Part shown: in pieces, positions 8,598 to 33,964 of the stretch
How the letters are laid out: each line of letters begins with the position of its first letter
Position numbering within the stretch: the first letter of the stretch is position 1
Translations under genes and position numbers: made by a program
DNA from: Ornithinimicrobium cerasi
GTDB taxonomy: Bacteria > Actinomycetota > Actinomycetes > Actinomycetales > Dermatophilaceae
Direction of reading: 5' to 3'
Length of the DNA stretch: 64,000 nucleotides
Assembly: GCF_003702705.1 (NCBI RefSeq)
Contig: NZ_QZMN01000014.1
Coordinates: 62,001-126,000, forward strand
The notes under the pieces: model-generated
Database searches by the model: none
What the model was told of the DNA's origin: nothing
The model's input: the letters and a program-made list of their open reading frames with translations, nothing else

Positions 8598-9817
8598 CGA
8601 CGTCGCGGCCCGAGGTGCCCGGGAGCATCTGGGCCGTCCCCGGGATGACCGCTCTCGCCGTCGTCGCCTTCACCGGCTTCTCCGGGTATGCCGCGCTCCT
8701 CCCCGTGGCGCCGCTGTGGGCCGTCCGCGGGGGAGCGGACAGCGCCGGGGCGGGGCTGGTGAACTTCGTCCTGCTCGGCACCACCGTGGCCACGCAGTTC
8801 TTCGTGCCGGCCCTGATCCGGCGCCTCGGCTGGGGGCACGCGCTGGCGCTGGGCATGGTGCTCCTCGGGGCGCCGGCGCTGCTGCACGTGGTGAGCGACG
8901 CCCTCGCCCCCACGCTCGCGCTGTCCGCCGTCCGGGGGGTGGGTTTCGGCATCCTCACCGTGGCGGCCAGCGCCGCGGCGGTCCTCGTCGTGTCGGCGGG
9001 GCGGAGGGGCGCGGCGGTCGGGGCCTACTCCCTGGCGCTGTCCGTCCCCAACGTCATCCTCATGCCCTCCGGCGCCTGGGTCGCCCAGGCCTGGGGGTTC
9101 GGGCCGGTCTTCGTCCTCAGCGCGCTCCCGCTGCTCGGCGTCCCGGCCTGCTACCTCCTCGGTCGGCACCTGCCGGAGCGGGCGACCCGGGGCCCCGGCC
9201 ACGCGGACGTGCCGGGCGCAGCCGCCGGCGCCTCGACCTACCGGGCGCTGGTGCGGCCCACCCTCGTCCTGCTGGCGATCACCCTCGCGGGTGGCGCGCT
9301 CATCACCTTCGCCCCGCAGCTGGTGGCGACCGGGTGGCTGGCGGCGGCCGGGCTGTTCTCGCTGGGCCTGCTCTCCGCGGTCACCCGCTGGCGGGTCGGG
9401 GCGCTGGCCGACCGGGTGGGCGCCGGCCGGCTGGTCTGGCCGTTCGTGCTCGTCGCGGTGGTCGGGCTCGCCTGGGTGGCCTGGCTGGTGCGGACCGAGG
9501 TGGGCGAGGACCGGGTCGTGCCGTGGGTCCTCGCGTGCGCCCTCGTCGGCGTGGCCTACGGCGCGCTGCAGAACCTCACCATGCTGCGCGCCTTCGAGGC
9601 GGCGGGGCCGCGCCGGGTGGGCGCCGCCAGCGCCGTCTGGAACGCCGGCTTCGACGCGGGCACCGCGGTCGGTGCCGTCCTCGTGGGGACGGTCGCGGTC
9701 GGCGCGGGCTTCGGCGTCGGGACGGCGATCACCGCCGTCCTCTGCCTGCTCACCCTGCCGCTGGCCCTGGGTCGCCGCGGCGGGCGCACGCCCCAGGCAG
9801 GGGTGCGGTCACCCTAG
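8594..9817 (+). CDS. MFS transporter, about 12 TM
   Basis: 407 residues with about 12 hydrophobic segments and no long soluble domains. Features include SAVRGVGFGILTVAASAAAV in helix 4 and GAYSLALSVPNVILMPSGAW in helix 5, as in sugar/drug-type MFS exporters. The GTG start overlaps the HhH-GPD stop by four bases, so translation is coupled despite the unrelated function. The substrate cannot be predicted. The stop codon lies in the left arm of a long inverted repeat at 9801-9872. Confidence 0.8.
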   Translation: MTTSRPEVPGSIWAVPGMTALAVVAFTGFSGYAALLPVAPLWAVRGGADSAGAGLVNFVLLGTTVATQFFVPALIRRLGWGHALALGMVLLGAPALLHVVSDALAPTLALSAVRGVGFGILTVAASAAAVLVVSAGRRGAAVGAYSLALSVPNVILMPSGAWVAQAWGFGPVFVLSALPLLGVPACYLLGRHLPERATRGPGHADVPGAAAGASTYRALVRPTLVLLAITLAGGALITFAPQLVATGWLAAAGLFSLGLLSAVTRWRVGALADRVGAGRLVWPFVLVAVVGLAWVAWLVRTEVGEDRVVPWVLACALVGVAYGALQNLTMLRAFEAAGPRRVGAASAVWNAGFDAGTAVGAVLVGTVAVGAGFGVGTAITAVLCLLTLPLALGRRGGRTPQAGVRSP

Positions 9818-9872
9818 CGGGACCTTCGTCACGCCCCAGCGCGATGGCGGTCCCTGGAGGGTGACCGCACCC
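9801..9872. terminator. Long two-part hairpin between convergent genes
   Basis: A 15-bp perfect outer stem (9801-9815 with 9858-9872; core GGGTGCGGTCACCC) is followed by a 3x3 internal loop, a second stem GGGACC/GGTCCC (9819-9824 with 9849-9854) and a 24-base loop. It spans the stop of the MFS gene and ends 5 bases from the stop of xthA, so it probably acts as a terminator in both directions. The stem is longer than a terminator needs. Confidence 0.6.
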
Positions 9873-28298: not shown

Positions 28299-28733
28299 AT
28301 GGCAGGGACGACGAACAAGGAGTCCTTCTCCGCGGCGGAGAAGAAGGCGATGAAGGAGCGCGCGGCCGAGCTCAGGGCGAGCCAGAAAAAGGAGAAGCTG
28401 GAGGAGGCGGTCCTGGAGAAGATCGCCGAGATGCCCGAGGACGAGCAGAAGCTGGCGAGACAGGTCCACGGGATCGTCAGGGAGGTGGCGCCGGACCTGA
28501 AGGCGAAGTCCTGGTACGGCATGCCGGCCTACGCCGACGCGAACGGCAAGATCGTCGTCTTCTTCCAAGGCGCCTCGAAGTTCGAGGCCCGTTACTCCAC
28601 CATCGGATTCGACGAGGCCGCACACCTCGACGAGGGCTCGATGTGGCCGGTCTCCTGGGCCCTCACCGCGCTCACCGACACCGACGCCGACAAGATCAGG
28701 GAGCTCGTGAGGCGGGCGGCCGGCACCGACTGA
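28299..28733 (+). CDS. DUF1801-type protein
   Basis: 144 residues. The N-terminal third is charged and probably helical (SAAEKKAMKERAAELRASQKKEKLEE). The rest resembles the DUF1801/YdhG (iron-chaperone-like) fold: IVREVAPDLKAKSWYGMPAYA, KIVVFFQGASKFEARYSTIGF, and a final helix. ATG 28299 has a GAAGGAGAG ribosome site. It follows the VOC gene by 22 bases. The molecular role of this family is not settled. Confidence 0.72.
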   Translation: MAGTTNKESFSAAEKKAMKERAAELRASQKKEKLEEAVLEKIAEMPEDEQKLARQVHGIVREVAPDLKAKSWYGMPAYADANGKIVVFFQGASKFEARYSTIGFDEAAHLDEGSMWPVSWALTALTDTDADKIRELVRRAAGTD

Positions 28734-28747
28734 CCTCCCACCCCCGC

Positions 28748-28817
28748 ACCTGTGCAACGACGTCGGAGCTGTGCGCGGGTTATGACACCCGTACAAGTGA
28801 CCTCGAGGTGCACAGGT
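28748..28817. repeat. 70-bp structured repeat, left copy
   Basis: The ends are a perfect 9-bp inverted repeat, ACCTGTGCA (28748-28756) and TGCACAGGT (28809-28817). Inside is a second fold, CGGGT/ACCCG. Length, ends and the next six bases (CGGGAA) are shared with the copy at 29900-29969; the two match at about 46 of 70 positions by my manual alignment. The pair flanks one gene. Confidence 0.8.
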
Positions 28818-28862
28818 CGGGAAGGGCGGGCATCGCCGGCTGACGGTCGGACGAAGGGACGT

Positions 28863-29810
28863 TCAGGCGACGGGCCGGCGGCGGACCCGGGCTCGACTGA
28901 AGGCGGCCCGGATCTTTGCCAGTACGCGCTCGGGCTGAGCAAGGTCCGACCAGGTGATCCGGACGATCTCGTACCCGAGCTCACGGAGCCGGTCCTCGCG
29001 ACGCTTCTCTGCGACCAGGTCGACCCTGCCGCTGTACTTGAGCGCCCCGTCGAACTCGACGATCGTCCAATGCTCCCGAAACAGGAAGTCCACGATGCCC
29101 ACCAGGTCCCCGGCCTTGTCACGGACCGGCACCTGCAGCTCGGGCGCCGGCAACCCGACCGTGTGCATGATCCACCTGCACCGCGTCTCCCCGCCCGAGT
29201 CGCTGAGGCCCGTGGCGTGCTCCAGGATCACGTCGGCTCGTGGGGACCTGGGTCCGACGATGCACGGTCTGGCCCTCTCCAGGCCAGGCGGGTCGGTTGC
29301 CCCGACGCGCAGGGCTGAGTCTGCGCTGACCAGGCCCGAGACGACCCCTGAGGCGACCCCGACCTGCAGGCACGCAAGCTCGGGGACGACCACAGGTATG
29401 CCGTCCCGTTCGGCCACCCAGCGGGGGAGGACGGGGGGATGCACATGAACGACCTTCCCGCTCCGACCGCGGCGGCCGTCGGTGCGGACCAGGTGCACGC
29501 GGTCGTCCACGTCGTAGACGCCGATGCCGAGCACGGCAAGGGCGCTGTGATGACTCAGCGCGTACGGCGAGGCCGGTGCGCACAGGACCAGCGCCACGGC
29601 CCGTGCGCGCAGCTCGTGCCGGTCCCAGTGGCTGGCCTCCCGCCACCTCGCCCCGTCAACGAAGGAGGATCGACGGATCCGCACCAGGACATCCGCAGCG
29701 AGCAAGGACCTGAGCTGGACCGGCGTCACGCCCAGAGCCGCCAGCTGCGCCGTCGTGGCGACGCCACCGTGTGCGCCGAGGACGGCCCGTACCTCGTTGA
29801 CGTCCGACAT
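28863..29810 (-). CDS. AbiEi-like winged-helix plus DUF559 (VSR-like) nuclease domain protein
   Basis: 315 residues in two parts. The N-terminus resembles the AbiEi antitoxin winged helix (HGGVATTAQLAALGVTPVQL, then a basic RIRRSSFVDGARW). The C-terminal ~100 residues look like the DUF559/very-short-patch-repair endonuclease fold: GIVDFLF and WTIVEFDG supply acidic residues, and the helix AEKRREDRLRELGYEIVRITW ends in the usual YEIVRIT strand (quoted as RREDRLRELGYEIVRITW). No AbiEii toxin gene is nearby. ATG 29810 is seven bases after a CAGGCT box. Two similar 70-bp repeats flank it. Its activity is untested; these proteins are common and multicopy in actinobacteria to my knowledge. Confidence 0.72.
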   Translation of the reverse strand: MSDVNEVRAVLGAHGGVATTAQLAALGVTPVQLRSLLAADVLVRIRRSSFVDGARWREASHWDRHELRARAVALVLCAPASPYALSHHSALAVLGIGVYDVDDRVHLVRTDGRRGRSGKVVHVHPPVLPRWVAERDGIPVVVPELACLQVGVASGVVSGLVSADSALRVGATDPPGLERARPCIVGPRSPRADVILEHATGLSDSGGETRCRWIMHTVGLPAPELQVPVRDKAGDLVGIVDFLFREHWTIVEFDGALKYSGRVDLVAEKRREDRLRELGYEIVRITWSDLAQPERVLAKIRAAFSRARVRRRPVA

Positions 29811-29817
29811 GCCCCCG

Positions 29818-29823
29818 AGCCTG
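29818..29823 (-). promoter_or_regulatory. -10-like box before the AbiEi/DUF559 gene
   Basis: CAGGCT on the minus strand, seven bases before ATG 29810; the first base departs from TANNNT. Confidence 0.4.
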
Positions 29824-29899
29824 ACCCATCGCTGGCCCGGCGGGCTGCGGTTGTCCACAGGCGGGCACGGGTAGGCCCGGGCCTCAGCCCGCCCTCACC

Positions 29900-29969
29900 A
29901 CCTGTGCACCGTAAGGGAGGTTGTGCACGCGAAATAGCACGGGCACAAGGTCGCTAGCGGTGCACAGGT
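29900..29969. repeat. 70-bp structured repeat, right copy
   Basis: The ends form a perfect 11-bp inverted repeat, ACCTGTGCACC (29900-29910) and GGTGCACAGGT (29959-29969). Inside, TTGTGC and GCACAA can form a second stem. It is the same length as the left copy and is followed by the same CGGGAA. Confidence 0.8.
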
Positions 29970-30007
29970 CGGGAAAGCGCGCAGGTGGCCCACAGGGGTG
30001 CGCTGGC

Positions 30008-33964
<3,957 letters not shown>

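Follow-up and report, generated by a model that had tools for sequence, protein, structure and literature searches.

An AbiEi-DUF559 gene between 70-bp palindromes in Ornithinimicrobium cerasi and its counterparts in other Actinomycetes

A stretch of 64,000 nucleotides from Ornithinimicrobium cerasi (RefSeq: GCF_003702705.1, contig NZ_QZMN01000014.1, positions 62,001 to 126,000), here called the window, contains a gene for a protein with AbiEi_4 and DUF559 domains that is bracketed by two palindromic elements of 70 bp. Genes of this kind and palindromes matching them are found together in many related genomes. Genomes are referred to by G numbers (G000 is the genome of the window, the others are those of relatives, with G004 being Serinicoccus chungangensis) and loci by L numbers. 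The neighbours of the cassette are a DUF1801 gene and purL, and the features are as follows.

28748..28817, no strand: 70-bp palindromic element of type A, 3' of the gene, between the DUF1801 gene and the DUF559 gene
28863..29810, minus strand: AbiEi_4+DUF559 gene, 315 aa from ATG; the open frame permits a GTG start at 29858
28905..29096, minus strand: DUF559 nuclease domain, residues 239-302, with D241, E252, D254 and K258
29670..29795, minus strand: AbiEi_4 domain, residues 6-47
29900..29969, no strand: 70-bp palindromic element of type A, 5' of the gene, between the gene and purL
9802..9871, no strand: lone palindrome of another type, matching the flanks of the DUF559 gene G000 C19:28185 (L050)

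The cassette beside purL

A preliminary description of this DNA, made from the sequence, had reported two elements of exactly 70 bp at 28748-28817 and 29900-29969, alike at 46 of 70 positions, each followed by CGGGAA, and enclosing a single AbiEi/DUF559 gene with no transposase. The coordinates and counts were confirmed, CGGGAA stands directly after each element, and both AbiEi_4 and DUF559 were found above the Pfam cut-off in the enclosed gene. Neither the open reading frames between the elements nor the Pfam scan of the enclosed gene gave a transposase. The perfect inverted ends are 9 bp long in 28748-28817, as described, and 12 bp rather than 11 bp in 29900-29969. The first element has 20 and the second 26 self-complementary position pairs out of 35, and when folded as single-stranded DNA they reach z scores of -2.3 and -6.3, respectively. 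The sequence ACCTGTGCA occurs four times in the window, always within the two elements (0.41 expected; 0 of 100 shuffles reach four), and the end motif has no occurrence in the window outside them. The start codon of the gene lies 90 bp from the upstream element.

Four full elements were detected in the genome of the window and none with a reversed control pattern; a looser search added one match with three mismatches, which is not palindromic. Two of the four are lone elements with no DUF559 gene within their 13-kb loci, and lone elements with the same ends, about which the preliminary description had asked, were also found in relatives. The lone palindrome at 9802-9871 is 75.6% identical over 78 bp (E-value 5e-10) to one flank of L050 and 80.8% identical over 52 bp (E-value 2e-8) to the other, and pairs at 26 of 35 positions. 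By these matches to the flanks of a different DUF559 gene in this genome, it is part of the same kind of system.

DUF559 (Pfam: PF04480) is a Pfam domain of unknown function. It scores 22.8 bits in the window protein against a cut-off of 20.6, while the REase_MTES_1575 profile stays under its own cut-off. The AbiEi profile of PADLOC covers residues 12-156 (E-value 2.6e-11), and NCBIfam has no match for the protein. AbiEi_4 was matched in 28 of the 35 relatives scanned, and the residues D241, E252, D254 and K258 are invariant in 35 of 35 aligned relatives. Ratios of nonsynonymous to synonymous substitution rates (dN/dS) between 0.19 and 0.30 across nine ortholog pairs are those of a gene under purifying selection. 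At the nuclease end there are two plausible but weak PDB matches, 3hrl (E-value 0.27) and 3r3p (E-value 0.92), and two further matches that appear unrelated. The record of 3r3p is titled 'mobile intron protein', and we take it to be the Vsr-like homing enzyme I-Bth0305I. A Y1 domain was found neither in the window protein nor in the families matched by 35 of 35 members (a genome-wide Y1 search was not made), and no AbiEii partner stands beside the gene at the window locus. Phage records gave no match to the protein, and plasmid records gave two, each over about one third of its length.

Genes and their own palindromes across genomes

Elements of exactly 70 bp, with at most two mismatches in the ends, are present in 17 of 32 genomes of the genus. 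By their differing interiors they sort into types A to F, all of which are 70 bp long and have the foot ACCTG. Each half contains two similar boxes about 19 bp apart (by eye). As element length and centre are fixed within each type, an attC-like integron cassette was set aside on grounds of geometry. Palindromes detected de novo have a median length of 70 bp (10-90% range 58-90). There are about 4-16 copies per type per genome, scattered and mostly intergenic, some of them between convergent gene ends (e.g. L054, L056 and L062).

Two side observations concern tandem arrangements. Three type D elements follow each other with a period of 82 bp behind a DUF559 gene of G005 (L097 1221-1454). In L051 (6217-6310), L072 (5910-6040) and L305 (G020) extra tail copies of the terminal box recur every 19-21 bp or so (by eye), and these look as if they came from slippage or template switching.

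Types B, C, D, E and F occur in loci that encode relatives of the window protein, 47-62% identical to it. The gene has an element on either side in the window (A), G005 (D), G020 (E) and G021 (C). In G016 (F) the distances to the gene are 70 bp for the element ahead of it and 780 bp for the one after it, and G004 (B) shows an element on one side. Two of the first eight genes (L081 and L098), both near the end of a locus or contig, show none. In four other loci, 66-71 bp separate the upstream element from the aligned start of the gene. A profile of eight such proteins has 2-12 matches per genome, among the matches listed, in 32 of 32 genomes of the genus.

To compare flanks gene by gene, we scored the 410 bp before each gene against the 410 bp behind it. 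Out of 98 loci with a gene, seven were dropped (four duplicates, two broken copies and one other DUF559) and three had no flank sequence, which left 88 genes. Their median flank score is 38, against 15 for mismatched genes, and a score of at least 28 is reached by 63 of the 88 clade genes but by only 2.1% of mismatched pairs. Among control genes of similar length, 4 of 125 score that high. A de novo scan found a palindrome scoring at least 7 on at least one side of 64 of 91 genes and on both sides of 31 of 91, where the 95th and 99th percentiles for random windows (n=283) are 6.0 and 8.1. The link between elements and DUF559 genes, which the preliminary description had left to be checked, thus exists and recurs at other loci with other sequences. 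A gene between paired elements is not always a DUF559 gene: a pair of type D elements about 1.1 kb apart in G005 encloses a UDP-GlcNAc 2-epimerase gene.

Outside the clade (below 140 bits), matching flanks were found for 3 of 16 DUF559 genes, namely those in L092, L104 and L110 with scores of 39, 58 and 33; of eight clade genes in that set, only four score 28 or more. Since these genes too have matching flanks, the arrangement may reach further than the clade.

The palindromes differ along with the proteins. Flanks of non-syntenic genes with less than 45% protein identity match in 2 of 597 pairs from a sample of such pairs; the synteny filter is leaky, with some same-locus pairs having a low far-flank score, and only this negative result below 45% is used. 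One locus with shared neighbours carries type C in G003, G004, G016, G021 and G028, type E in G020 and another type in G013, and its orthologous proteins are 52-68% identical between subtypes. G020 has eight exact-pattern copies, all of type E like the flanks of its gene, and one F-like copy with two mismatches. By hand count from the listed rows, there are about 6-16 type C sites each in G003, G016, G021, G028 and G029 and none listed in G012, G013 and G020. Because orthologues at the shared locus differ in type and the copies of G020 match type E, flanks, lone copies and protein change together.

All 12 genomes with an A-F-type gene among the matches listed have at least four elements, while 15 of the 18 genomes without such a gene have none, two have one and one has two. 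The gene class is drawn at 430 bits or more in the genus profile search, a line set after seeing the data, and the A-F-type gene of G024 is a contig-end copy beside which no element of its own was seen. G001 and G008, with a broken copy at purL, have seven and five elements. These tests of co-occurrence, like those of flank identity, ignore phylogeny. On this evidence A-F elements become common only where the genome has an A-F-type gene or remnants of one; many copies do stand alone, as would be expected of elements unlinked to DUF559 genes, yet they do so in genomes with a present or past gene.

The purL comparison covers 27 genomes, five of the 32 having no purL match. Three of them, G000, G001 and G008, have the cassette or its remains. 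In the remaining 24, the 1.5 kb next to purL holds no relative of the gene and no type A element, so that sites without the cassette, for which the preliminary description had proposed a check, do occur. Five of these 24 (G002, G026, G024, G013 and G016) have another palindrome scoring at least 7 within about 460 bp of purL. In L261 (G002) a different tandem palindrome, GCTCGTGAGTGGC...GCCACTCACGAGC, takes the place beside purL that the cassette occupies in the window. At purL in G001 and G008 a broken gene is accompanied by a whole left palindrome, and both genomes retain an orthologous copy of the 28748-28817 element.

Presence and absence also vary at other sites. The type B element at L072:5910 (G004) is absent from the same spacer in 8 of 8 relatives. 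This spacer (L072 5840-6075 in G004; L305 in G020) has type B in G004, type E in G020 and no element in the other seven relatives. A site in G029 has one palindrome and no gene where G028, G004 and G021 have palindrome, gene and palindrome, with flanks 89-94% identical. Since less related genomes hold the gene at that site, it is best read as a gene loss that left one palindrome.

A first search pattern found the element in 15 of 187 genomes, all of the own genus. The apparent confinement to one genus was an artefact of the pattern, as other subtypes differ in sequence. The protein is present in 62 of 63 genomes from the other genera of the family and in 218 of 296 genomes sampled across the class. 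The loci tested for flanks beyond the genus were the best-scoring ones and not a random draw: matching flanks were found in 20 of 29 usable loci of the family's other genera (30 taken), in 23 of 27 usable loci of the class sample (29 taken, two of the 27 from the own family; 6% of mismatched pairs reach the same score) and in 21 of 25 loci of other families. Taken together, these sequences describe a general pattern, a class-wide set in which the palindromes differ from one protein subtype to another. The cassette view of the preliminary description is, by the same comparisons, too narrow, the window cassette being one member of this set.

A scan of the sequence collection returned 21 stretches, one of which (L029) is the G004 element. 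No related protein lies within 6.9-8 kb around eight of the 21. A metagenome-assembled genome of Atopobiaceae (L025, L036, L037 and L042) contains CGACCTGTGCA...TGCACAGGTCG motifs arrayed at intervals of about 40 bp. No related protein lies within 8 kb of them, and these arrays are another repeat.

Proposed mechanism and alternative explanations

The preliminary description had supposed an inner stem whose sides differ between copies and remain paired, and a hairpin as the form recognised. The sides do differ. The pairing was only partly borne out, as the interior of copy 1 (28748-28817) is poorly paired and, when pairing within copies is compared with pairing between halves of different copies (shuffled halves), a clear excess is seen only in type A (z 5.3, 21 copies, genomes pooled). 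Type D is slightly above the shuffled halves (z 2.3, 17 copies), and types B (z -1.8, 15 copies), C (z -0.7, 29), E (z 1.4, 11) and F (z -1.8, 8) show no compensation. Pooling of several genomes with subtypes of their own can cause the excess in type A. Overall, the pairing of the halves would come mostly from conserved half-sites and not from compensation, type A excepted. Half-sites that are conserved separately favour a double-stranded site for a dimer over a recognised hairpin.

We hold with moderate confidence that the window holds one unit of a class-wide system, in which an AbiEi-type DNA-binding nuclease, with DUF559 as its Vsr/PD-(D/E)XK-like nuclease domain, recognises, and probably helps to disperse, its own palindromes. 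The architecture, the gene-by-gene match of flanks, the co-occurrence of elements and genes, the orthologous presence and absence, the purifying selection and the invariant active-site residues can all be read from the sequences themselves. A homodimer would bind the palindrome as double-stranded DNA, with one subunit to read each half (about 35 bp), and the nuclease would break or nick the DNA at the palindrome. Repair would then carry copies of the palindrome, or less often of the gene, into other intergenic sites. The palindromes may persist as a slowly turning-over, mostly vertically inherited population, like REPs (repetitive extragenic palindromes) with RAYT (REP-associated tyrosine transposase), and the protein may also repress its gene from the upstream copy, in the way AbiEi acts on its operon. 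Analogy with AbiEi supports the binding step, and we infer the cutting and the spreading.

Several points weigh against this proposal. Binding, cutting and movement are all predictions from sequence. An enzyme of this kind would cut its own genome, with 4-20 sites, unless its activity were weak or controlled. By the score measure, 25 of the 88 genes have no matching flanks, and the known nuclease structures are matched weakly, at the E-values of 0.27 and 0.92 given above. The elements in G001 and G008 are well preserved despite the broken purL gene, so the elements can do for a time without an active cognate gene. The pairing excess in types A and D counts here as well, because a hairpin model would expect it. 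A target duplication was not recognised at the L072 spacer, the sole site examined, and this spacer also varies by deletion.

A regulatory role would need no movement at all: the AbiEi part would be an autorepressor, the flanks its operators and the lone copies a regulon or decoys, and the nuclease would act on, for example, invading DNA. In the passages available of PMC3985639, AbiEi represses its own promoter via inverted repeats that form a long imperfect palindrome, and the upstream element here precedes the gene (90 bp from the start codon in the window, 66-71 bp in the four other loci), with half-sites that resemble dimer sites. We nevertheless regard this account as unlikely, since it leaves unexplained the second copy behind the gene, the lone elements between gene ends (L054, L062), the tandem copies behind a gene (82-bp period, L097) and the turnover of lone copies between relatives. 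A homing or site-to-site cassette, in which the gene moves between palindromes that are empty sites and a lone palindrome awaits the gene or was left by it, would account for the whole palindromes on both sides and the lone copies. The single palindrome of G029, where relatives have palindrome, gene and palindrome, and the weak match of the nuclease part to 3r3p point the same way. This is improbable: the 24 gene-free purL genomes also have no type A palindrome and so show no pre-existing site there, the G029 site reads as gene loss, and the enzyme, unlike that of a homing gene, would cut the intact sites that flank its own gene.

Dispersed, mostly intergenic palindromes, tandem copies and loss of a gene with its palindrome kept are all REP-like, and an unlinked HUH/Y1 (RAYT) transposase might move the repeats, with the DUF559 gene a passenger or inserting beside them. 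We give this very little credence, because the palindrome sequence tracks the DUF559 protein subtype, both gene flanks match, the elements measure about 70 bp instead of 20-50, and a Y1 domain occurs in 0 of 35 associated proteins (whole genomes were not searched for Y1). Transcription terminators or hairpins that stabilise mRNA at gene ends would fit the several elements between convergent gene ends (L054, L056, L062), and the elements can fold. This account we find the least credible of all, given the fixed length, the subtype-specific sequence, the matching copies before and behind one gene family, the little compensation outside type A and the lack of any Rfam match above chance. An RNA element was likewise rejected: Rfam gave two matches in 28600-30100, both far under their gathering scores.

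Our wider proposal is that each genome holds several independent families of dimeric AbiEi-DUF559 endonucleases, each co-evolving with and dispersing its own double-stranded palindrome of about 70 bp. Built from an antitoxin-type DNA-binding module and a Vsr-like nuclease, they would be a convergent counterpart of REP/RAYT and an undescribed, class-wide form of mobile or domesticated actinobacterial DNA; we see about as much reason to accept this as to doubt it. If true, an enzyme with no relation to RAYT would maintain a REP-like population of palindromes, which would inform the question of what spreads such repeats and what makes bacteria retain them. The present comparisons link a large DUF559 clade to a specific DNA partner. 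Each protein comes with a presumed site of its own, so that specificity becomes directly testable in dozens of natural pairs, and these could show how AbiEi-type domains read DNA.

Comparison with known systems

The preliminary description had called the cassette possibly undescribed, and we found no description of a gene-palindrome system of this kind in the literature searched; the search reached few subscription papers and preprints, so novelty is unproven.

According to the parts of PMC3985639 consulted, the site bound by AbiEi of Streptococcus agalactiae is a long imperfect palindrome, and through this binding the protein represses its own promoter. The AbiE type IV toxin-antitoxin system and the system described here have an AbiEi-like N-terminal part in common. 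AbiE also has an AbiEii partner, whereas the window gene has none at its locus, carries a fused nuclease domain and has palindromes behind the gene and elsewhere too. Membership in AbiE fails because there is no AbiEii at the window locus.

I-Bth0305I reportedly acts as a dimer on a pseudo-palindromic target, where its footprint is about 60 bp. The likeness to homing endonucleases is the weak match of the nuclease domain to PDB 3r3p (E-value 0.92). Homing genes interrupt their own target, while here we see no intron or interrupted target, lone copies are dispersed and whole palindromes lie on both sides of the gene (window, G005, G020 and G021). Membership among homing genes fails because the flanking sites are whole. 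Vsr-like (EDxHD) homing endonucleases are named in the accessible part of PMC11879112. VsrA of Caulobacter has DUF559 in a Vsr-like protein, as here, and is held to cause an SOS response in part of the cells when a cytosine methyltransferase is missing; in the portions of the source available (PMC12907096) the string 'palindrom' is absent and an AbiEi part is unmentioned.

The preliminary description had also likened the cassette to REP/RAYT, which holds for the arrangement and fails for the enzyme. As far as the sections available of PMC8266576 and PMC8049555 go, REPtrons (TnpA-REP/RAYT; REP/BIME/REPIN) resemble the present system in having a gene beside cognate palindromes with more copies dispersed, and in both cases genomes with the gene hold more copies. 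The REPtron gene is rarely on mobile replicons according to these sections, and here there is no phage match and there are two partial plasmid matches. The same sections give a HUH/Y1 transposase as the product of the REPtron gene, whereas the genes here encode AbiEi+DUF559 with no Y1 in 35 of 35 members scanned. REP palindromes are described there as 20-50 nt long, following a conserved tetranucleotide and present in hundreds of copies; those described here are about 70 bp long, have an ACCTG foot (types A-F) and number about 4-16. REPtrons are further characterised by recognition of single-stranded hairpins, while the pairing here would come mostly from conserved half-sites, with the excesses in types A and D noted above. 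REP/RAYT is thus the closest system in behaviour, and differs in the enzyme, in the length of the palindrome and probably in the form of the DNA. We rate the system as new in kind because no known kind tested has its defining parts, and would count it with REP/RAYT only if the dispersal of palindromes by a cognate enzyme were taken as one kind, whatever the enzyme.
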